Positions 3,612-12,787 of a DNA stretch of 12,788 bases are shown in pieces. Positions within the stretch are counted from its first letter, which is position 1. Each line of letters opens with the position of its first letter. The position numbers and the translations under genes were made by a program. Below the pieces are notes generated by a model. That model saw nothing but the letters and a program-made list of their open reading frames with translations. It was not told where the DNA came from and did no database searches. The stretch is from an uncultured Oscillospiraceae bacterium (GTDB lineage: Bacteria; Bacillota; Clostridia; Oscillospirales; Ruminococcaceae), in assembly GCA_958403605.1 (NCBI GenBank), contig CATXYA010000011.1, forward strand, positions 1 to 12,788. The letters are read 5' to 3'.

Positions 3612-3613
3612 TT

Positions 3614-3628
3614 GTTAAGCTGCTTAAC
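3614..3628. promoter_or_regulatory. Putative MarR operator (perfect 15-bp palindrome)
   Basis: GTTAAGC-T-GCTTAAC is a perfect inverted repeat with 7-base arms about a single central base. It begins one base after the -10 box of the marR promoter and covers the predicted transcription start (about 3623). Size, symmetry and place are as expected for an autoregulatory MarR site, where binding would block RNA polymerase. Assignment to this MarR protein is inferred from adjacency. Confidence 0.75.
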
Positions 3629-3629
3629 T

Positions 3630-3658
3630 ATTCTAGAACGAAAGTACTTTGCTGTCAA
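3630..3658 (-). promoter_or_regulatory. Sigma-A promoter of the marR-ABC exporter operon
   Basis: On the minus strand, TTGACA (3653-3658, perfect -35) is followed by a 17-base spacer and TAGAAT (3630-3635, five of six to consensus). Transcription is expected to start near 3623, inside the palindrome. The spacer also contains a 10-bp palindrome AAAGTACTTT (3641-3650). A promoter this close to consensus would be strong, so repression is the likely control. Confidence 0.85.
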
Positions 3659-3803
3659 GATGGAAGCGCCGCATTTCATAAAAAGTTCAAAATTGCGCAG
3701 AGGACAGGGCTTGCTGCTTTCGCGGCATCGCGCGGGCGGATCTTCTTTCTTTTCGCCGGTAGGGGATCGAGGTACGGTCAAGAGGCGGCCGCTGGCGGGG
3801 AGC
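3659..3803. other. Intergenic stretch with no supported gene
   Basis: About 145 bases between the marR promoter and the terminator of the 28-codon ORF. ORFs crossing it run through the terminator or the promoter and have no ribosome site. I see no tRNA, repeat or convincing RNA structure. It is GC-rich near 3715-3803 and more balanced near the promoter. Confidence 0.6.
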
Positions 3804-3837
3804 AAAAAAGCGCCCGGCTTACAGCCGGGCGCTTTTT
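3804..3837 (-). terminator. Rho-independent terminator after the 28-codon ORF (possibly bidirectional)
   Basis: A perfect 10-bp GC-rich stem (GCGCCCGGCT / AGCCGGGCGC, arms 3810-3819 and 3823-3832) closes a 3-base loop and is flanked by six A on one side and five T on the other, giving U-tracts in both directions. On the minus strand it begins 17 bases after the stop of the small ORF. It isolates that ORF from the marR promoter unless it is regulated. Confidence 0.92.
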
Positions 3838-3854
3838 CTGGCAATGTGCGTTTC

Positions 3855-3941
3855 TCAGAAGCGCTCGTTGACGGTGAAGTACGCGTCGATGGCGTCCTTG
3901 CTCACTTCTTTGCCAAACATGAATTTGAAAAAGTTGTTCAT
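3855..3941 (-). CDS. 28-residue microprotein or leader peptide, unrecognised
   Basis: An ATG ORF of 28 codons ending in TGA, beginning MNNFFKFMFGKE and ending YFTVNERF. The evidence that it is translated comes from context: AGGAGG at 3950-3955 sits 8 bases before the ATG, a promoter with perfect TATAAT lies about 100 bases upstream, and a strong terminator follows the stop after 17 bases, so it is the only ORF on its transcript. The peptide is aromatic-rich (six Phe, one Tyr); residues 1-9 are hydrophobic with one Lys, and 12-28 could form an amphipathic helix. Lys/Arg and Asp/Glu balance at four each, and there is no Cys. It is too short for a membrane-spanning toxin of the usual type I pattern, and no antisense promoter is evident. 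It could be a small regulator or a leader peptide that controls read-through into the exporter operon. I do not recognise a family. Confidence 0.78.
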   Translation of the reverse strand: MNNFFKFMFGKEVSKDAIDAYFTVNERF

Positions 3942-3949
3942 AAAAAAGA

Positions 3950-3955
3950 CCTCCT
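3950..3955 (-). promoter_or_regulatory. Ribosome binding site of the 28-codon ORF
   Basis: Perfect AGGAGG, 8 bases (mostly T) before the ATG at 3941. It is as strong as any ribosome site in the window and better than those of most V-ATPase genes, which argues the peptide is made in quantity. Confidence 0.88.
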
Positions 3956-4004
3956 AAATAAAATGAATGTGTCAGCCGCCCGAATGGTGACGGCCGCTTT
4001 CCCT

Positions 4005-4030
4005 TGTAAGGACCTACTCTTGTCCTTACA
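4005..4030 (-). promoter_or_regulatory. 9-bp hairpin at the predicted 5' end of the small-ORF transcript
   Basis: TGTAAGGAC and GTCCTTACA (arms 4022-4030 and 4005-4013) form a perfect 9-bp stem with an 8-base loop. Counting from the -10 box, transcription should start at about 4029-4031, so the RNA would begin with this stem. Two readings fit: a 5'-terminal stem-loop that protects the RNA, or a DNA operator over the start site. Confidence 0.65.
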
Positions 4031-4036
4031 TGTTCT

Positions 4037-4064
4037 ATTATATTCATTTTTTGCACAAATGCAA
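4037..4064 (-). promoter_or_regulatory. Sigma-A promoter of the 28-codon ORF
   Basis: On the minus strand, TTGCAT (4059-4064) is followed by a 16-base spacer and a perfect TATAAT (4037-4042). The next gene upstream ends at a terminator at 4174-4211, so this promoter is the ORF's only obvious source of transcription. The spacer holds one copy of TTGTGCAA (4051-4058). Confidence 0.82.
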
Positions 4065-4082
4065 GCGGTATTCTTTATGAAC

Positions 4083-4115
4083 ATTGCACAACTACTTAAC
4101 GAGCTTTTGTGCAAT
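4083..4115. repeat. Inverted repeat upstream of the small-ORF promoter (candidate regulator site)
   Basis: ATTGCACAA (4083-4091) and TTGTGCAAT (4107-4115) are perfect 9-bp inverted arms around 15 bases. The 8-base core recurs at 4051-4058 in the promoter spacer in the orientation of the 4083 copy, 33 bp away, close to three helical turns. Placement at about -53 to -85 suits an activator or a looping repressor. No regulator for it is visible in the window. Confidence 0.55.
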
Positions 4116-4173
4116 ATGGATATATATGAACGATATATTAATGCAAAATGACGAAAATAAGGCGGAATTGTGA

Positions 4174-4217: not shown

Positions 4218-4844
4218 CTATTCCGCCGCCGGCTGGGCAGCTTTCTGCCGTTTGATGACCTTGAGGCGGGTGAATTCCTCACGCTCGTGCTCCTCCAGCG
4301 TGGAGGAGATGAAGCGGATATTTTCTTCCAGCCGGGGAATGACCACATTTTCCAGCATATTGGCCCGGCGCTGGGTCTTTTTGATGCCCGTCGCCAGGCG
4401 GTAGACGCTGTTTTCGATGCCGCCCAGGTCGGCGCACAGGCGCTTGACCCGGTCGAAGCACAGGTAGGCGTAATCCAGCTGGCCGTTGGTGCCCGCAAAC
4501 CCGTAATAGGGGTAAGGGGCCGGGGAATCCAGATGGCCCTGGGGCAGGTCCACGCCCATGATGCTGTGGCTGGTGACGGAGAAGCCGTCTTCCACGGCGG
4601 TGACGCTCTCCAGCGAAAAATCGATGCCCAGGGTGATGTTGGCGCTTTCCAGCGCCTTGTAGGCCTTGGTGAAGGTGTCGCCGATCTCCCGCTGCATGGC
4701 GCCCGCCGCGTCGATAAGCTTCATCATCTCCCGCATCAGCACGTTGCGCTTGCGGTCCAGCAGGTCGAAGCCCAGCTTGGCGAGAGTCAGATTTTTCTTG
4801 CAGGCGATCAGGTTGCCCTTGGTCGGGAAAATTTGCTCAGCCAC
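4218..4844 (-). CDS. ntpD: V-type ATPase subunit D (central rotor shaft)
   Basis: A 208-residue coiled-coil protein forming the central shaft that turns inside the A3B3 head, the V-type counterpart of F-type gamma. The family signature is clear at the N-terminus: PTKGNLIACKKNLTLAKLGF (7-26), then LLDRKRNVLMREMM (28-41). A second long helix near the C-terminus (about 150-200) ends EEFTRLKVIKRQKAA, as usual for the family. Length is normal. The start is GTG at 4844, with GGGGGAG-type ribosome sequence at 4851-4858; the first in-frame ATG would remove the conserved PTK motif. It follows subunit B after 23 bases and is the last gene before the operon terminator, the A-B-D order conserved in bacteria and archaea. 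Confidence 0.97.
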   Translation of the reverse strand: MAEQIFPTKGNLIACKKNLTLAKLGFDLLDRKRNVLMREMMKLIDAAGAMQREIGDTFTKAYKALESANITLGIDFSLESVTAVEDGFSVTSHSIMGVDLPQGHLDSPAPYPYYGFAGTNGQLDYAYLCFDRVKRLCADLGGIENSVYRLATGIKKTQRRANMLENVVIPRLEENIRFISSTLEEHEREEFTRLKVIKRQKAAQPAAE

Positions 4845-4867
4845 AAGGGCTCCCCCCTTTCAAAAAC

Positions 4868-6256
4868 TCAGTGTTTGCCATAGTGCTGGGCCAGCACGTC
4901 CTCGTCGATGCGGTCCAGCTCCTCCCGCGGCAGGATGGACAGCAGCCGCCAGCCCAGATCCAGGCTTTCGTCGATGGTGCGGTCCTCATCCTGGCCTTGG
5001 TTCAGGAATTCGTGCTCGAAGTGGTCGCCGAAATCCAGGTAGCGCTTGTCGGTGGACGAAAGCTCTTCCTCGCCGATGACGCTGGCCAGGCCGCGGGCGT
5101 CGGACACCTTGGCGTAGCTGGCGAACAGCTGGTTGGAGACGTCCGCGTGATCCTCGCGGGTATAGCCCTTGCCGATGCCGTCCTTCATCAGACGGGACAG
5201 GCTGGGCAGCACGCTGATGGGCGGGTAGACGCCCTGCTGGTCCAGGTAGCGGTCCAGCACGATCTGCCCCTCGGTGATGTAACCCGTCAGGTCGGGGATG
5301 GGGTGGGTGATGTCGTCGTTGGGCATCGTGAGGATGGGGATCTGCGTCACGCTGCCCGCGCGGCCCTGGATGACGCCCGCGCGCTCGTAGAGGCTGGCCA
5401 GGTCCGAATACAAATAGCCGGGATAGCCCTTGCGGCCCGGGATCTCGCCCTTGGAGGAGGAGAACTCGCGCAGGGCCTCGGCGTAGCTGGTCATATCCGT
5501 CATGACCACCAGCACGTGCATGCCCTGCTCAAACGCCAGATACTCGGCGGCGGTCAGCGCGCAGCGCGGCGTCAGGATGCGCTCGATGATGGGGTCGCTG
5601 GACAGGTTGAGGAACATGGTGACGCGGGCCAGCGCGCCCGATTCTTCGAAGCTACGGCGGAAGTATTCCGCCACGTCCTTGGTGACGCCCATGGCGCAGA
5701 ACACCACGCCGAATTTTTCGTGCTCGGTGCCCTGGCCGCTCAGCTTGGCCTGGCGCACGATCTGCGCCGCCAGCTTGTTGTGGCTCATGCCGCTGCCCGA
5801 GAAGATGGGCAGCTTTTGGCCGCGGATGAGGGTGATGAGGGAATCGATGGACGAGATGCCCGTGCGGATGTAGTTGCGCGGGTACTGGCGGCTCACCGGA
5901 TTGATGGCGCTGCCGTTGATGTCGTCGAAGCGGCTGGCGTACACGGGGCCCAGCCCGTCGATGGGCTCGCCCGCGCCGCTGAAAATGCGGCCCACGATCT
6001 CGGGGGCCAGGGCCAGGCGCATGGGTTCGCCCATGAAGCGGCTCTCGGTGCCTGTCAGCTCCATGCCGCTGGTGCCGGCAAACACCTGCACCACGGCGCG
6101 CTTGCCCTCCAGGGCCACGATGCGCCCGGTGCGCACGCCGTCCTTGGTGCGGATCTGCACCAGCTCCTCGTAGCCGGCGCCCTCCACGCCGTCAATGGCC
6201 ACCAGCGGGCCGTTGATGTCCGCGAGGCCCAGATATTCCATTGCCCAATTCGCCAT
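4868..6256 (-). CDS. ntpB: V-type ATPase subunit B (non-catalytic head subunit)
   Basis: A 462-residue cytoplasmic subunit alternating with A in the A3B3 hexamer. Visible family features are the N-terminal barrel (1-75), [17 protein letters not shown] (122-138), [15 protein letters not shown] (152-166), where the normal P-loop Lys-Thr motif is replaced as expected for this non-catalytic subunit, and [12 protein letters not shown] (351-362) holding the arginine (R355) that reaches into the neighbouring catalytic site. Length is normal for bacterial B subunits. The ATG lies 6 bases after the stop of A, and the AGGAAG ribosome sequence is within the last codons of A, implying coupled translation and matching the 3:3 stoichiometry. 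Confidence 0.98.
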
Positions 6257-6262
6257 GGGGGC

Positions 6263-8056
6263 TCACTTCCTTTCCGGCTGCTCCGCCATCGAAGCGGCGG
6301 TCTGCTGCGCGAGCAGGTCCGCGCAGGCGCGGTCCAGCTCTGCATTGTAGGTCTTAAACATTTCGGGCTTGTCGTTGGGGATCTCGTACTTCACCTTTAC
6401 CAGCTTGTCGAACAGGCCCGCCTCTTTCATGGCGGAAACGGGCACGCCCGCCTCGGCCAGCTCTTTGGTGCGGTCATACAGGTGCATGATGGCTTCCATC
6501 ATCCACAGCTGCTTTTCCAGCGGCACATAGGTGTCGTCCTTGTGGAAGGCGTTCTGCTGCAAAAAGCCCACGCGGATGACGCGGGAGATCTCCAGCGTCA
6601 GGCGCTGGCTGTCGGGCAGCACGTCCGTGCCGATGAGCTTGACGATCTCCATCAGCTTGTTTTCCTCGCTGAGGGTGCTCAGCATGCGCCCGCGCAGGTC
6701 GCAGAAAACGCGGCCCAGGTGCTCGATGTAGTAGGGGTCCAGGTCCTCGTAATACTCGGAATAGCTGATGGTCCAGTTGATGGCGGGGTAGTGCCGGGCA
6801 TAGGCCAGGCTTTTGTCCAGCGCCAAAAAGCAGCGCACGAAGCGCTTGGTGTTCTGGGTGACGGGCTCGGAGAAGTCGGAGCCCTGGGGCGACACAGCGC
6901 CGATGATGGACACGCTGCCCTTGGCGCCGCACAGCGCCTCCACGCAGCCCGCGCGCTCGTAAAACGCGGCCAGGCGGCTGGGCAGGTAGGCGGGGAAGCC
7001 CTCCTCGGCGGGCATCTCCTCCAAGCGGCCCGAGATCTCGCGCAGGGCCTCGGCCCAGCGCGAGGTGGAATCGGCCATCATGGCCACATCGTAGCCCATG
7101 TCGCGGTAGTATTCCGCCAGGGTGATGCCGGTGTAGATGGACGCCTCGCGGGCGGCCACAGGCATGTTGGACGTGTTGGCGATCAGCACGGTGCGCTCGG
7201 TCATGGGCTTGCCGCTCTTGGGGTCCTCCAGCTCGCTGAACTCCTGCAGCACCTGGGTCATCTCGTTGCCGCGTTCGCCGCAGCCCACGTAGATGATGAT
7301 GTCGGCGTCGCACCATTTGGCCAGCTGGTGCTGGGTCATGGTCTTGCCGGTGCCGAAGCCGCCGGGCACGGCGGCGGCGCCGCCCTTGGCGATGGGGAAC
7401 AGCGTGTCGATGACGCGCTGGCCCGTGATCAACGGACGGCTGATGGGCTCGCGCCGGCGCACGGGGCGGGAGACGCGGATGGGCCATTTCTGGGCCAGGC
7501 ACACGTCCTTGACCTCGCCGGTGTCGGTCTCGATCTTGCAGATGGGCTCGGTGACGGTGTAGGCGCCGTCGGGCGCGGCCCATTTCACCACGCCGGAAAT
7601 GTCCGGCGGCACCATGCTTTTGTGGGTGATGATGGACGTCTCGGGGCAGGTGGCGATGACATCGCCGCCGGACACCTGCTGGCCGGGCTTCACGCACACG
7701 GTGACGTCCCACTTTTTCGCCTCATCCAGGCTGTCGGCGTGCACGCCCGTGGCGATGAAGGCGCCGTTTTGCTGGGCGATGACGCCCAAGGGGCGCTCGA
7801 TGCCGTCGAAAATATTCTGCATGATGCCGGGGCCCAGGGTGGCGGAAAGGGGCGAGCCCGTCCCGCGCACCGGTTCGCCCACGCGCAGGCCGGTGGTGTT
7901 CTCGTACACCTGGATGGTGGTCTTTTCGCGGCTGACGCTGATGACCTCACCGATGAGGCCCGCCTCGCCCACGTAGACCATCTCCATCATGCCGAAGGTG
8001 TCGGTATGGCGCACGGTGACCACGGGGCCGTTGATGGAATAGATCGTATCTTTCAT
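6263..8056 (-). CDS. ntpA: V-type ATPase subunit A (catalytic subunit)
   Basis: A 597-residue catalytic subunit hydrolysing or synthesising ATP at the A/B interfaces. The P-loop PGGFGTGKT (231-239) is intact, GERGNE (260-265) contains the catalytic Glu261, and MADSTSRWAEALREISGRL (327-345) is the usual nucleotide-site loop. The V-specific non-homologous insert lies at about 115-190 (from VCVKPGQQVSGGDVIATCPE onward), which separates it from F-type beta. Length is normal. The ATG at 8056 overlaps the stop of subunit E as ATGA, so translation is coupled. Nothing unusual is seen in active-site residues; the direction of the reaction in the cell cannot be read from the sequence. Confidence 0.98.
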   Translation of the reverse strand: MKDTIYSINGPVVTVRHTDTFGMMEMVYVGEAGLIGEVISVSREKTTIQVYENTTGLRVGEPVRGTGSPLSATLGPGIMQNIFDGIERPLGVIAQQNGAFIATGVHADSLDEAKKWDVTVCVKPGQQVSGGDVIATCPETSIITHKSMVPPDISGVVKWAAPDGAYTVTEPICKIETDTGEVKDVCLAQKWPIRVSRPVRRREPISRPLITGQRVIDTLFPIAKGGAAAVPGGFGTGKTMTQHQLAKWCDADIIIYVGCGERGNEMTQVLQEFSELEDPKSGKPMTERTVLIANTSNMPVAAREASIYTGITLAEYYRDMGYDVAMMADSTSRWAEALREISGRLEEMPAEEGFPAYLPSRLAAFYERAGCVEALCGAKGSVSIIGAVSPQGSDFSEPVTQNTKRFVRCFLALDKSLAYARHYPAINWTISYSEYYEDLDPYYIEHLGRVFCDLRGRMLSTLSEENKLMEIVKLIGTDVLPDSQRLTLEISRVIRVGFLQQNAFHKDDTYVPLEKQLWMMEAIMHLYDRTKELAEAGVPVSAMKEAGLFDKLVKVKYEIPNDKPEMFKTYNAELDRACADLLAQQTAASMAEQPERK

Positions 8057-8694
8057 ACTGTTTTCGTCTCTCCTTGGTCCACACGCAGGCCGCAGCGCGA
8101 CAAAAAGCGCTCGCGTTCCGCGTCGGCGGCAAAGTCCAGCGTCTCGTCAAACAACACGCCGTCGGCAGCCAGCTTGAAGCCGCCCAGCCGGATGCGGCCG
8201 TCGGCCTTCACCGGGCAGCCGGGGAACACCTTGGCCGCCGGGGCGGCCAGACGCGTCTCGTCGCCCCGGCGCACGTACAGCGCGGCGGGGGTATGGCCCT
8301 GGGCGCGCCGGGCGCAGGCGGCCAGACGCCGCTCCATATCGGCCACATAGGCGGGCGTCTCGGCGTAGGCCTCCAAATTTTCCTCGGCCTCGGCAAACAG
8401 GGCGTTCACCAGCTGCTGGCGGTACACCAGCAGCTTCTTGCGGTTCTCCTGCTGCGCAAAGGCCACCTTGCGGGCCAGCGCGGCCTCGGCCTCGGCACGG
8501 TACAGCTCCACGGGGTCCGTGCGCTGCGGGGCCGTCAGCTTCTGGTACATCTGCTCGGCCTCGGCGCGGGCGGCCTTGATGATATTGTCGGCCTGCCGCT
8601 GGGCGGCGTCCATGACGGAATCATCGAACGCGGCGTATTTTTCCTCGCTGCCCACCCGTTTGGCGGTGCGCTGCAATTCCTCTTTATTCTTCAA
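8053..8694 (-). CDS. ntpE: V-type ATPase subunit E (peripheral stalk)
   Basis: A 213-residue stalk protein pairing with the G/H-type subunit to hold the head against the membrane. Residues 1-115 are a highly charged, Ala-rich helix (for example AAQRQADNIIKAARAEAEQM, 30-49), followed by a small globular C-terminal domain with KADGRIRLGGFKL and the family-like DGVLFDETLDF. Identification rests on this architecture, size and operon place more than on sharp motifs. The start is TTG at 8694: an in-frame TGA lies 6 bases further upstream, no ATG exists in the first 25 codons, and GAGGTGA (8701-8707) is well spaced. It follows subunit F after 11 bases and overlaps subunit A by four. Its place between F and A is less common than the K-E-C order of Enterococcus. 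Confidence 0.92.
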   Translation of the reverse strand: MKNKEELQRTAKRVGSEEKYAAFDDSVMDAAQRQADNIIKAARAEAEQMYQKLTAPQRTDPVELYRAEAEAALARKVAFAQQENRKKLLVYRQQLVNALFAEAEENLEAYAETPAYVADMERRLAACARRAQGHTPAALYVRRGDETRLAAPAAKVFPGCPVKADGRIRLGGFKLAADGVLFDETLDFAADAERERFLSRCGLRVDQGETKTV

Positions 8695-8700
8695 AGCGGT

Positions 8701-8707
8701 TCACCTC
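8701..8707 (-). promoter_or_regulatory. Ribosome binding site deciding the TTG start of subunit E
   Basis: GAGGTGA on the minus strand, 6 bases before the TTG at 8694 and overlapping the stop of subunit F. It supports TTG as the real start rather than an internal codon. Confidence 0.7.
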
Positions 8708-9014
8708 AAATCTTTACGCCCACGACTTCCGAGATATAGCGTTTGATGCTGTCCCCGGGATTGGAGTCGCTGTGGCGGTCGGGCATTTCCACGATCAGCG
8801 GCCGGCGGCGCGTCAGCTTGTAGCTGAACACCAGCTCCGAGCATTTCGCCACCAGCTTGTCGGTGATGAGCACCAGGCCCACCTCGTCGTCCGCGCACGC
8901 CTTCTCCAGCGCCTCGCGCACCTCGGCTTCCTCGTGCACCACAACGCCCCGCACCCCCACGAGCCGCATGCCCGCAAGCGTATCCACGTTGTCGCTGATC
9001 AAAAAGTACTTCAT
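8706..9014 (-). CDS. ntpF: V-type ATPase subunit F (rotor)
   Basis: A 102-residue soluble subunit that binds subunit D in the rotor (called NtpG in Enterococcus hirae). The fold signature is plain: MKYFLISDNVDTLAGMRLVG at the N-terminus, then the central strand and helix VGLVLITDKLVAKCSELV (45-62), RRPLIVEMPD (70-79) and the final helix SIKRYISEVVGVKI. Size is normal. The ATG lies 4 bases after the stop of K. The gene symbol follows the general V/A-type nomenclature, so take care when comparing with the E. hirae names, where ntpF is a different stalk gene. Confidence 0.96.
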   Translation of the reverse strand: MKYFLISDNVDTLAGMRLVGVRGVVVHEEAEVREALEKACADDEVGLVLITDKLVAKCSELVFSYKLTRRRPLIVEMPDRHSDSNPGDSIKRYISEVVGVKI

Positions 9015-9018
9015 GGGA

Positions 9019-9351
9019 TCACACTTTGTTGAGGATCAGGATGGAGATCAGCATGCCGTACAGGGCGATGCCTTCGCCCAGCACCACGAAGATCAGGGCT
9101 TTACCAAAGCTCTTGGGGTCCTCGGTCAAAGCGCCGATGGCGGCGGGGGCGCCCGCGCCCACGGCGATGCCGGCGCCGATGCCCGCAATGCCCGTGGAGA
9201 GGGCGGCGGCAATGAGGCCCAGCCCGTTGGAGCCGGCGGTGACGGCGGAAGCGTCGCCCTCAGCAAAGGCGATGCTGGACAGCGCGCAGGCCAGCGCGGC
9301 GGTCAGGGTGAGAAGAAACAGGGTGCGAAGCATTTTTTTCTTGTTGTTCAT
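9019..9351 (-). CDS. ntpK: V-type ATPase subunit K (membrane rotor ring proteolipid)
   Basis: A 110-residue proteolipid forming the rotating ring that carries ions. Residues 1-30 look like a signal sequence (Lys-rich start, hydrophobic core, AFA before EGD), as in the Thermus ring subunit. Two membrane helices follow: 43-70 with the Gly-rich packing motif GIAGIGAGIAVGAGAPA, and 84-107 with VVLGEGIALYGMLISIL, where Glu93 is the ion-binding carboxylate. This is a single hairpin, half the 156-residue, four-helix NtpK of Enterococcus hirae, so each hairpin carries its own Glu. The helix-1 position where sodium-binding rings have Gln is Ala60, hinting at protons; this is inference. The gap to subunit I is 81 bases and the ribosome sequence GGAG is 11 bases from the ATG. 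Confidence 0.96.
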   Translation of the reverse strand: MNNKKKMLRTLFLLTLTAALACALSSIAFAEGDASAVTAGSNGLGLIAAALSTGIAGIGAGIAVGAGAPAAIGALTEDPKSFGKALIFVVLGEGIALYGMLISILILNKV

Positions 9352-9407
9352 AAGGATTCATACTCCATTCTGCCGGTTCGCGGCGAAGATTTTAGGTTTA
9401 TGTTCAT
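9348..9407 (-). other. 19-codon ORF ending on the subunit K start codon (possible coupling ORF)
   Basis: Within the 81-base gap between I and K, an ATG at 9407 opens 19 codons (MNINLKSSPRTGRMEYESL) whose TGA overlaps the ATG of K as ATGA. No proper ribosome site precedes it (GGGG abuts the ATG). It could deliver ribosomes to the abundant ring subunit, or be chance; a second in-frame ATG gives only six codons. Confidence 0.25.
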
Positions 9408-9432
9408 CCCCACAGGGAGGGAAGGCGGGATT

Positions 9433-11373
9433 TTAAGCGGCGCGCTCGATGCCCTCGGTCACGCGCAGCGGCGTGAAGGGGGTGCCGGCGGCCTCGAAGA
9501 AGCGGCTGAAGATCTCGTAGAATTCCAGGCGCAGCACCTGGATGCCCACAAACAGGGCCTCCAGCGCCATGACGAACAGGTTGCCCACAATGACGATGAG
9601 CACGTAGGGCACACCGCTGGTCATATTGGCCAGCGTGAACACCACGGTCATCATGCCCGCGTGGGCCAGCACGAAGCCGCCCACACGCAAAAAGCTCATG
9701 GTGTTGGAGGCGAAGCTCAGCACCGCGTCGAACATCTCAAAGAAGCCGTTGATGAGGATCTCGCCCACCTTGCCGGGCTTATGGCCCTCCAGCATCTCGC
9801 AGATAGGCTCGGAGAAATACATGCAAAGGAAGGGGATCCCCAGGAACAAGATGCAGTAGGGCACCGAGCCCACAAAGGGCAACTGCACGCCCAGCATGGG
9901 CAGCAGCAGCAAGATCAGCGCCAGGTAGAACACCAAGCCCGACACGCCGTTGACCGAAAGCAGCGTCTTGGCGATGATGCCGCGCCGCAGGTTGGAAATG
10001 ATGCCCGTGACGATGGCCGCCGCGATGATGAACACGCCTGCGGCGATGCTGGAAATGAGGATGGCGTTGATGCTGTTGGGCTCCATGACCTCCAACGGCT
10101 TTTCTGCAAAGCCAAGAGCATGGTACATGGGGTCCAGCGCGTGCTCAAAGCCGAACACGCTGCCGTACACAAAGCCGAACAGCACGCTGAAAATGCTGCA
10201 CCGGGCCACCACCTGGCCCAGCTGCATGTGCATCTTTTTATACATGATGAAGTAGGCGATCAGCCCCAGCAGCACGCCCTGGCCCACGTCGCCGAACATG
10301 ACGCCGAACAGGATGGCATAGGTGACGGCCACGAAACTGGTGGGGTCGATGTCGCCGTAGCCCGGCAGGCCGTACATGTCGATGAACATCTCGAAGGGCT
10401 TGGCGAACCAGTTGTTTTTCAGCTTGGTGGGGGGCTTGAGCAGGTCGGTGCCCTTGGCGCCCACCTCCTCGTCGGTGTTGGCGCGCACGTCGGGCAGCTC
10501 TTTGCCCACGGCGTCCTTCAGCCGGGCCACCTGGTCCTGCGGCACGAAGCCGCTGATGTAATAGCTGTTTTCCAGCAGAATGACATAGCGGTGCATCTGG
10601 GCCAGCTGCGATTCATAGTTGAGCCACGCCGCCGCCGCCTTCAAAAAGGCGATGTCCTCGGGCGAGGCCACGGCCGCCAGATCGTCCAGCTCTTTTTGCT
10701 GGGCCTGCAGGTCGTTTTCATCGGCCATGATCTGCGCCAGCGCGTCCTGCGGGGTGCCGTGCACGAAATCAGGCACCCACATGCGCTCAAAGTACAAACT
10801 GGCGAAGATGTTGTCCACCTCTTCGGAATTGGCCTGGGGCACAAAGTACATGCCCCAGTAATATTCGCCGTCGAAATCGTATTCGCGGAAGGTGAACGGC
10901 AGGTTTTCATAGTAGGGCAGCTTGACGTAGCTGTCCTTGGGCAGGCGGCCGAAGCGCACCTTCAGGTATTTGCAGCCGAAGATCTCGTCCATGCTCGTCT
11001 GCAGGCCCGTCAGGTGGTACAGCTGGGCCTTCGCCTGTTCGTAAGTATTCAGCTTGGCCGCAATCTCGGCCTTTTCCTTGCCGCGCTGGGCGACCTCCGC
11101 CGCAAAGCCCTCCACCTTCTGCTGGACTTCCTCCAGCTCATACCGCTGGCCGTCCCAAACGGGCAGCGTCTCGTTTTCCCCCAGATCCTTGAGCAGACCG
11201 GCTGCCTGCTGCAGCAGCGGCCCGTAAGCATCTTCACATTGGGTGGTGCCGGGCCGCAAGGTGCCCGGTTCATCGGGCTGGAAGCATTCCAGCTTCGCCA
11301 GCAGCTCCAGCGTGGGCTGCGGATCGCGCCCGGGCCCATACAGGTTCATATGGACCATTTTTACCATACCCAT
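9433..11373 (-). CDS. ntpI: V-type ATPase subunit I (membrane stator, ion channel half)
   Basis: The membrane stator subunit, the V-type counterpart of F-type a. Counted from ATG 11373 it has 646 residues: a soluble N-terminal half (1-325) with long coiled-coil stretches (about 80-120 and 220-260) that anchors the peripheral stalks, then about eight membrane helices. Family motifs are MFGDVGQG (359-366), SFLRVGGFVLAHAGM (560-574, R563) and GIQVLRLEFYEIFSRFFEA (610-628, R615), two arginines expected to face the ring carboxylates. An open frame begins 9 bases earlier with GTG (11382), but that GTG is part of GAGGTG (11380-11385), the natural ribosome site for the ATG 6 bases on, so I prefer 11373. 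The C gene ends 25 bases upstream. Confidence 0.96.
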   Translation of the reverse strand: MGMVKMVHMNLYGPGRDPQPTLELLAKLECFQPDEPGTLRPGTTQCEDAYGPLLQQAAGLLKDLGENETLPVWDGQRYELEEVQQKVEGFAAEVAQRGKEKAEIAAKLNTYEQAKAQLYHLTGLQTSMDEIFGCKYLKVRFGRLPKDSYVKLPYYENLPFTFREYDFDGEYYWGMYFVPQANSEEVDNIFASLYFERMWVPDFVHGTPQDALAQIMADENDLQAQQKELDDLAAVASPEDIAFLKAAAAWLNYESQLAQMHRYVILLENSYYISGFVPQDQVARLKDAVGKELPDVRANTDEEVGAKGTDLLKPPTKLKNNWFAKPFEMFIDMYGLPGYGDIDPTSFVAVTYAILFGVMFGDVGQGVLLGLIAYFIMYKKMHMQLGQVVARCSIFSVLFGFVYGSVFGFEHALDPMYHALGFAEKPLEVMEPNSINAILISSIAAGVFIIAAAIVTGIISNLRRGIIAKTLLSVNGVSGLVFYLALILLLLPMLGVQLPFVGSVPYCILFLGIPFLCMYFSEPICEMLEGHKPGKVGEILINGFFEMFDAVLSFASNTMSFLRVGGFVLAHAGMMTVVFTLANMTSGVPYVLIVIVGNLFVMALEALFVGIQVLRLEFYEIFSRFFEAAGTPFTPLRVTEGIERAA

Positions 11374-11379
11374 GGATAA

Positions 11380-11385
11380 CACCTC
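11380..11385 (-). promoter_or_regulatory. Ribosome binding site of subunit I
   Basis: GAGGTG on the minus strand, 6 bases before ATG 11373. Gene finders choosing the longest frame would take its GTG as the start codon. Confidence 0.75.
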
Positions 11386-11398
11386 GTTTCTTTTTCCC

Positions 11399-12442
11399 TT
11401 AATATTTCAAAAACGCGTCGATCTGTTCCACAGGCAGGCCGTACCGCACGCCCTCGATCACGTTTACCACATTGCTGCGCTCCATGTTTGCCAGGCACAG
11501 GAACGCCGTCAGCACCGTCTCCGGGTTGCTGGAAAAGTGCAGCAGCCGCTGGGCCGACCGGTACAGCGCCCGCTGAGCGGGCACCTCGGTGGCTTTGCCC
11601 AGATCGGCGCTGCGCTCACCATACACGTCCTTGGCGCGGCAGGTGCCGTAAACGCGCAAAAACGCCTCCAGGTCCGGCGCCTGGGCCAGCTCCCGCAGCT
11701 TTTTGTCGGAGATCACACACGTCACCGGCACCAACAGCTGCGTCAGGCGCGCGGGCGGCAGCTGGCCCGCGTAAAACGCCTTGGCCCGGTACAGCAGGTC
11801 CAGGTTGTGGGCCTCGGCTTCCATCTGGAACAGACGCCGCGTCGCGGCGGCGTCGCGCCCGTGGCCGATGCGCGCCAGAGACGTCTGATAGTAATACGAC
11901 CAGAACGTGTGCTCACAGGCCAGATAATCGGGCGCGCTGCCGTCCTTGGGCAGCAGCCCCGCCAGCAGCTTGGCATAGGGGGTGCCCGCCAGCACGGGCA
12001 GGCAGTCCGCCGGGGCCTCGGCCTTGGCCAGGCCCATCAGGCTGAAGCTGGTCTTGTCGGCCAAAAAGCCGGGCAGGTTGACGATATAGTGGTGCTTGAA
12101 GCCCATGGCCAGCAGCCGCAGCTTCGTCAAAAGCTCTTCGATCTCACAGCGCATCACGAAAAACGAGAGGAACCCGCTTTTTTTGAATGAGTAGTGGATC
12201 AGCCCTTCGTACTTGTAAAAAACGTCCTTGCTCAGCGCCTGCTCCAGCTGCTCGCGGTGCAGGTTGGTCTGGGAAATGCCCTTCAGGCTGTGGACGAAAT
12301 AGGGATGCGCCTGCAGCGCGGCCATCACTTCCAGCACGCTGCGCTTGCGCGCAAATTCCAGATATTCCGCCCGCGTCGGCCGGCGCGCGGCCATGGCCTT
12401 GGCTTTAGGCACGATGGCAAGGGCGGATAAGTTATCCAGCAT
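11399..12442 (-). CDS. ntpC: V-type ATPase subunit C (socket between rotor shaft and ring)
   Basis: A 347-residue helical subunit (the equivalent of eukaryotic V-ATPase subunit d) that seats the D/F shaft on the K ring. The N-terminus ALAIVPKAKAMAARRPTRAEYLEFARKRS (7-35) carries the family's K-A-K-A-M start and the following acidic/aromatic helix; later parts are typical of the family, with helical repeats such as LLTKLRLLAMGFKH and the C-terminal NVIEGVRYGLPVEQIDAFLKY. Length matches the family (about 320-350). The ATG at 12442 has GGAG immediately upstream and AGGAAG further up (12451-12456). It precedes I here, whereas in Enterococcus and Thermus C lies after K and E; the rearranged order does not affect function. 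Confidence 0.93.
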   Translation of the reverse strand: MLDNLSALAIVPKAKAMAARRPTRAEYLEFARKRSVLEVMAALQAHPYFVHSLKGISQTNLHREQLEQALSKDVFYKYEGLIHYSFKKSGFLSFFVMRCEIEELLTKLRLLAMGFKHHYIVNLPGFLADKTSFSLMGLAKAEAPADCLPVLAGTPYAKLLAGLLPKDGSAPDYLACEHTFWSYYYQTSLARIGHGRDAAATRRLFQMEAEAHNLDLLYRAKAFYAGQLPPARLTQLLVPVTCVISDKKLRELAQAPDLEAFLRVYGTCRAKDVYGERSADLGKATEVPAQRALYRSAQRLLHFSSNPETVLTAFLCLANMERSNVVNVIEGVRYGLPVEQIDAFLKY

Positions 12443-12475
12443 CTCCGTCGCTTCCTTTCGCGCTGTCCACGGATC

Positions 12476-12787
12476 TTACCCCTCGGCCAGCATGTTTTTC
12501 GTCACCTCGTCCAGCCAGGCCTCCCGGTGCGTTTCAAACGCATCGTCCAGGCCGCGCTTGGCGGCGAGGTAAGCCTCGTCAGCCTTCTGGTTTTCCGCCT
12601 GCTCCCGCAGGGCAAGCTCTGTGTCGATGGCCTGCTTGCCCTGTTGGGTGGCGGCGCTCTGTTTTTTCAATTCCTCCGCCGCGCGCTGTTTGGCCTCTTC
12701 CAGCAGGCGTTTTTTCTCCCGCTGGGCGTTTTCAATGACGCCGCGGGCCTTGCGGTCGGTCTCAATGATGCGGTCTACAAATGCTTC
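12476..12787 (-). CDS. V-type ATPase G/H-like peripheral stalk subunit (5' end outside window)
   Basis: At least 103 residues of almost pure charged helix, open to the window edge. It begins in-window with EAFVDRIIETDRKARGVIE and continues through NAQREKKRLLEEAKQRAAEE; the composition (Glu, Lys, Ala, Gln, Arg) and the DRKAR / NAQREKK pattern resemble the short coiled-coil subunits (G, H or NtpF) that pair with E in the peripheral stalk. These are usually 100-120 residues, so only a few codons are probably missing. A TTG within the frame at 12670 is not the start, since the helix runs on upstream. It ends 33 bases before subunit C. Assignment is by architecture and operon place; such coiled coils have little diagnostic sequence. 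Confidence 0.8.
   Translation of the reverse strand, partial: EAFVDRIIETDRKARGVIENAQREKKRLLEEAKQRAAEELKKQSAATQQGKQAIDTELALREQAENQKADEAYLAAKRGLDDAFETHREAWLDEVTKNMLAEG

Follow-up and report, generated by a model that had tools for sequence, protein, structure and literature searches.

A probable gene for a 28-residue microprotein, apparently confined to a small clade near Ruthenibacterium, with a putative operator dyad at its promoter

In DNA of an uncultured Oscillospiraceae bacterium, the minus strand carries, between a V-ATPase gene cluster and a MarR–ABC cluster, what can be regarded with moderate confidence as a real gene, monocistronic and regulated, that encodes a 28-residue microprotein and is restricted to one species or small clade near Ruthenibacterium. 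The window (the whole stretch of DNA analysed, 12,788 nucleotides) is placed near Ruthenibacterium and Faecalibacterium sp. UBA1819 by its V-ATPase subunit D (best identity 84%). The elements of the unit are as follows.

4064–4059, minus strand: −35-like hexamer TTGCAT, a weak match (3/6) to the consensus TTGACA (sequence)
4042–4037, minus strand: −10 hexamer, perfect TATAAT, with a 16-bp spacer to the −35-like TTGCAT (sequence)
4030–4005, minus strand: perfect 9-bp inverted repeat TGTAAGGAC/GTCCTTACA with an 8-nt loop, at the expected 5′ end of the transcript (sequence and folds)
3973–3996, minus strand: second predicted hairpin of the 5′ UTR, 8 bp (fold)
3955–3950, minus strand: perfect Shine-Dalgarno sequence AGGAGG, 8 nt before the ATG (sequence)
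3941 (ATG) to 3855 (end of TGA), minus strand: 28-codon ORF, MNNFFKFMFGKEVSKDAIDAYFTVNERF (ORF call, codon signature)
3838–3804, minus strand: intrinsic terminator of 16 pairs, with a loop of 3 and a U-run (sequence and folds)

Promoter, first hairpin, AGGAGG, ATG, 28 codons and terminator all lie where a preliminary description of this DNA had put them. Its promoter holds as far as the perfect TATAAT is concerned, but the −35 element is weak, and because TTGCAT matches only three positions, a generic promoter scan with a limit of 4/6 at −35 did not list the promoter of the unit. Nor did that scan list the terminator, whose T-run, it is suggested, is absorbed into the stem; the evidence for both elements therefore lies in sequence and folds. 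The terminator's first paired base lies 16 nt, and its A-run 17 nt, from the stop codon, in agreement with the previously reported 17 bases if these are counted to the A-run. With an A-run on one side and a T-run on the other, the stem at 3804–3838 could act bidirectionally; no plus-strand gene is evident nearby. The inverted repeat at 4030–4005 begins 7 nt after TATAAT and is possibly an mRNA-stabilising hairpin, its position at the transcript start being inferred; the expected transcript, from 4030 to 3804, would measure 227 nt, with a 5′ UTR of 89 nt. For the second hairpin, a 36-nt piece around it gave a fold z of −2.73, but the 63-nt 5′ UTR lacking the first hairpin gave −0.98. Counting against the main reading, the Shine-Dalgarno sequence is largely paired in the predicted fold of the full transcript (unpaired probability 0.13–0.43).

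Codon choice in the ORF resembles that of the host, and the ORF is therefore probably a protein gene. Its GC content at codon positions 1/2/3 is 0.36/0.21/0.82, compared with 0.59–0.72/0.35–0.50/0.81–0.92 in the ten neighbouring genes, and the excess of GC at position 3 peaks inside the ORF in 60-nt sliding windows. This GC3 contrast was equalled by 1/50,000 base permutations, and the synonymous codon score against the window's own genes (log ratio 11.4 relative to intergenic background, 10.1 relative to the ORF's own composition) exceeded 20,000/20,000 draws under each of two nulls (maxima 8.7 and 6.7), these P values being somewhat flattering because they concern one sequence that a reader had preselected for looking good. 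Among the starts on the transcript that reach a stop within its 227 nt, only the ATG at 3941 has a Shine-Dalgarno sequence in front of it, so the peptide ORF is the sole closed, Shine-Dalgarno-led ORF there, as expected from the earlier assertion that nothing else on this transcript could be the product. Together with the codon signature and the Rfam result given below, this upholds the view that the transcription unit is self-contained and that its probable product is the 28-residue peptide.

The combined anatomy of the unit is unlikely to be due to chance. The window and 41 loci (434,663 bases, both strands) were searched for a perfect AGGAGG 5–10 nt before a start, an ORF of 15–60 codons, and a terminator of at least 7 pairs with its 5′ arm ending no more than 60 nt from the stop. 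Nine places had AGGAGG with such an ORF and two had all three features, namely the 28-codon unit and a 53-codon ORF in locus L029; five block-wise dinucleotide shuffles had no place with all three. Small ORFs led by a Shine-Dalgarno sequence were rarer in real DNA (9) than in the shuffles (mean 18.8), so that this pair of signals is unremarkable on its own and it is the terminator that makes the difference. The L029 ORF (5756–5917, minus strand) is followed closely by a terminator of 13 pairs.

The features flanking the unit are listed here.

4844–4218, minus strand: V-ATPase subunit D gene (Pfam PF01813)
4214–4183: terminator-like site after subunit D (site scan)
3658–3630: promoter-like site before MarR, TTGACA-17-TAGAAT, 11 of 12 (site scan)
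3614–3628: perfect 15-bp palindrome GTTAAGCTGCTTAAC, just after the MarR −10 (motif search)
3574–3089, minus strand: MarR gene (family search)
3082–878, minus strand: ABC gene (family search)

With a terminator-like site of its own for the V-ATPase cluster and a promoter-like site of its own for MarR, the 28-codon unit stands alone. Downstream of the first ABC gene a second ABC frame, interrupted by the window edge, was recognised by reading. The palindrome GTTAAGCTGCTTAAC is probably an autoregulatory operator of MarR; it was considered as a link between the small gene and the MarR unit and rejected, no other match within 3 mismatches being found near the small gene. Upstream, an uninterrupted series of nine minus-strand frames (4218–12787), the last of them subunit D, was read as a V/A-type ATPase cluster, with D assigned by family search. 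A long antisense frame at 3612–4151 (plus strand), with GC3 of 0.45, is not credible as a gene.

Conservation of the peptide across clostridia, raised in the preliminary description, is not supported: tblastn searches of samples from genus (11 genomes), family (396), order (394), class (391) and phylum (398) gave nothing credible. Within the genus, a single match was obtained at E ≤10 (E 0.64, genome G007), and it lay inside a 174-residue frame. At E ≤1 the family sample gave weak matches in 26/396 genomes (12.2–16.3 bits), three of which (L051, L054 and L055) were not reproduced by separate tblastn. Of the remaining 23, 17 fell in frames of at least 97 residues, some of these reading as radical-SAM-like, glycosidase-like or integrase-like, and six in frames of 32–77 residues, four lacking a start codon upstream of or at the match and two having starts but no clear Shine-Dalgarno sequence; after this inspection of the loci, all 26 were judged chance matches. 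No genome matched at E ≤0.05 in the order (0/394), class (0/391) or phylum (0/398) samples, draws that overlap in part. Searching phages and plasmids at E 10 gave no match to the peptide, the first 41 loci gave nothing convincing (best E 1.0), and two degenerate back-translated patterns were found 0 times in viral contigs. By blastn, the 651-bp intergenic region matched 11 plasmid records and 1 phage record in pieces covering 3–6% of the query. The peptide was earlier said to match no recognised family, and family profiles agree, with 0 matches in Pfam, NCBIfam and PADLOC and a best PHROG E of 0.27; neither these profiles nor a search of PDB sequences, which gave no match, has much power at 28 residues.

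The sensitivity of these searches was gauged with a 28-residue piece of subunit D, sought in 61 relatives and found in 12. Nine of the 11 genus genomes had a subunit D match, and the piece was found in eight of them (78–84% protein identity, 58–75% over the piece, 23.5–34.3 bits) and not in the ninth, whose subunit D has 33% identity. A homologue as alike as this control would thus be detected within the genus, barring an assembly gap. Four more distant genomes gave the piece at 43–53% identity and only 16.8–17.3 bits; sensitivity is therefore limited beyond the genus, where remote homologues could be missed. These distant true hits barely exceed the best of the family matches to the peptide, so bits alone do not decide the latter.

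In a comparison of gene order, L004 is the one locus of the 41 with a match to the ABC gene as well, and there, by reading, the terminator after subunit D runs straight to the MarR promoter without the unit. In this respect relatives lack a homologous ORF at the same locus, an outcome that the preliminary description had named in advance as telling against it, and which bears on conservation. Regions after subunit D in L001, L003, L005, L007 and L011 held nothing like the unit by eye and tblastn, while L002 and L006 extend no more than about 350 and 45 bases, respectively, past subunit D. A DNA search of the genus gave matches of 16–55 bp in 10/11 genomes, the four best of which (G002 twice, G315 and G004; three genomes) fall on the terminator part and the fifth, in genome G398 (32 bp, E 0.0083), inside the ORF. 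Five relatives of the MarR protein were found at E ≤1e-10, including two of 92% and 88% identity, so other close strains may exist that carry the small gene.

It appears unlikely that the unit instead yields a small regulatory RNA, or a dual-function RNA for which the peptide is of secondary importance. The transcript would be short and structured, with a long 5′ UTR of 89 nt, and the stability of its overall fold was reached by 0/200 shuffles (fold z −4.57; 5′ UTR z −2.77). Much of this stability, however, is due to the terminator and first hairpin, the structure being ordinary apart from them: z falls to −1.53 for the 5′ UTR with the ORF and to −0.98 for the 63-nt 5′ UTR without the first hairpin, and is +0.49 for the ORF alone. 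No Rfam covariance model matched at its gathering score, 18 matches lying far below threshold, and the consensus Shine-Dalgarno sequence likewise counts against this reading. Given that the whole unit is not conserved, the four best DNA matches in the genus being to its terminator part, and that its codon signature is indicative of a coding sequence, an RNA gene is not the preferred reading.

Of the rival mechanisms, the one to be taken most seriously, given the ABC exporter genes downstream, is that the ORF encodes a leader peptide for ribosome-mediated attenuation of a downstream MarR–ABC–ABC exporter operon, stalled translation leading to read-through of the terminator. Such a leader would have the arrangement seen here on one strand, in which small ORF and terminator are followed by MarR and the ABC exporter genes (the second ABC by reading); six of the 28 codons are for Phe, and there is a precedent in Bacillus subtilis, where bmrB, a small ORF with an intrinsic terminator, precedes the exporter genes bmrCD; in that system, terminator and antiterminator are described as lying within the ORF, with translation controlling read-through (PMC4191407). 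Measured against that description of bmrB, the present terminator comes after the stop, no antiterminator beyond chance is found and MarR has a promoter-like site of its own. Upstream pairing of the terminator 5′ arm gains 6.5 kcal/mol, and 127/200 shuffles did as well or better (mean 7.7). About 230 nt separate the terminator from the MarR start, the 11-of-12 promoter-like site there is accompanied by the perfect palindrome, the relative at L004 has MarR–ABC without a leader, and the codon choice of the ORF is that of the neighbouring genes. Attenuation is, on this evidence, improbable.

Less probable still, despite the lack of a detected homologue, is an ORF that arose by chance, in a transcription unit that is spurious or decaying, or that was assembled in part from a gene fragment. 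The ORF resembles a GAPDH-like gene of G398 over a short distance: 32 ORF bases (3883–3914, minus strand), encoding the 11 residues GKEVSKDAIDA, align with L071 1501–1532 at 84% identity (E 0.0083 for one genome), in frame and with 8/11 residues identical, within a 342-residue frame read as GAPDH. Part of the ORF may conceivably derive from such a fragment, which would carry the codon signature along, but the match itself is probably chance. Against a chance ORF stand the codon score (0/20,000 null draws as good) and the scarcity of the three combined signals (two places in 434,663 bases, none in five shuffles). A type I toxin repressed by antisense RNA to its 5′ UTR is very improbable, since the structured 5′ UTR of this small ORF and a weak plus-strand promoter-like site (3937–3964), followed by the 4005–4030 repeat, listed as terminator-like on that strand, are offset by the lack of a membrane-spanning stretch in the peptide (11-residue windows, highest mean hydrophobicity 0.28) and by the quality of the promoter-like site, which at 9 of 12 is of a kind expected 0.7 times in the region. 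The RNA-gene, attenuator and type I toxin readings are all weaker than that of a microprotein gene.

Regulation of the microprotein gene is suggested by an octamer at its promoter, TTGTGCAA, which the preliminary description did not include. All three exact copies in the window lie within 64 bp.

4051–4058, minus strand: TTGTGCAA copy in the spacer between −35 and −10 (motif search)
4084–4091, minus strand: TTGTGCAA copy (motif search)
4107–4114, plus strand: TTGTGCAA copy (motif search)
4084–4114, minus strand: dyad TTGCACAA-N15-TTGTGCAA, putative operator, recurring in the family at fixed spacing (motif search)

Three copies, against 0.42 expected in the window, were seen in 1/200 whole-window shuffles, and in a local test any octamer with at least 3 G/C occurred at least three times in 1/3000 shuffles. 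Genus and family were searched for TTGCACAA-N8–24-TTGTGCAA, with the reversed pattern as control. In the genus, 2/11 genomes contained three such sites, two upstream of genes read as NagD-like HAD (L106) and galE (L108) and one within a coding frame (L107), and the reversed pattern gave none. The family gave 42 sites in 30/197 genomes, as opposed to 5 for the reversed pattern, with a spacer of 16 in 23/42 and of 15 in 8/42 (hand tally). As an operator, the dyad looks real, judging from its recurrence in sequence, and a putative regulator acting there probably controls the 28-residue unit. The literature matches listed, judged by title and the opening of the abstract, included no such bacterial site for the octamer. 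Inspection of the loci of 20/42 family sites found mixed adjoining genes, read from sequence as BglG-type antiterminators (L109 and L110), cellobiose phosphorylase-like (L123), citrate synthase-like (L128), PadR-like (L124) and others, some sites being without a clear gene nearby; such mixed neighbours do not reveal the role of the peptide.

In the mechanism proposed, a putative DNA-binding regulator would act at the TTGCACAA/TTGTGCAA dyad, centred ~69 bp upstream of the expected +1, on a sigma-A promoter, perhaps as an activator, given the weak −35 and the position of the dyad upstream of it. Transcription by sigma-A would start at about 4030, the hairpin at 4030–4005 would protect the short mRNA, the consensus Shine-Dalgarno sequence would direct translation of the 28 residues, and the terminator would end the RNA at 3804 after about 227 nt. 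With four K/R and four D/E, the peptide carries no net charge; it has a Phe-rich N-terminal segment, and its amphipathicity is not significant (permutation P 0.097 for residues 11–28, 0.66 for the full length), leaving the idea of a binding helix with little support. Other very small bacterial proteins work by binding larger partners or a membrane surface, and the best guess, from size and composition, is that this peptide would do likewise, using the Phe-rich segment at its N-terminus and a helix that may form at its C-terminus; it would be neither an enzyme, a membrane-spanning pore nor a leader peptide. SpoVM and other Bacillota membrane-surface proteins of fewer than 30 residues combine a hydrophobic or aromatic segment with a charged remainder. 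The present peptide is like them in size and in its aromatic segment and charged remainder, with no sequence similarity claimed, and unlike what would be expected of that type in its non-significant amphipathicity.

A small gene confined to one lineage is an ordinary kind of thing, as figures given for the GMSC catalogue indicate: more than half of small-protein families with at least three members are genus-specific, most genus-specific families are species-specific, and 39.7% of analysed families are species-specific (PMC11364881). The ORF is like those species-specific families in having fewer than 100 codons, no annotated family and an apparently narrow clade, and differs in that a transcription unit and a family-wide dyad are described for it as well. 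More tentatively, and at the level of a doubtful possibility, it may be a lineage-specific regulatory microprotein that is the output of a putative family-wide regulator at TTGCACAA-N15/16-TTGTGCAA dyads, a newly acquired small protein in an old family circuit. If the reading of a microprotein gene is right, a gene of this kind can be complete and well formed while no relative of it is detected in its own genus, and conservation filters would discard it for that reason even though codon signature and signals indicate that it is probably real; the dyad would offer a way of testing when a gene of this sort comes into use.
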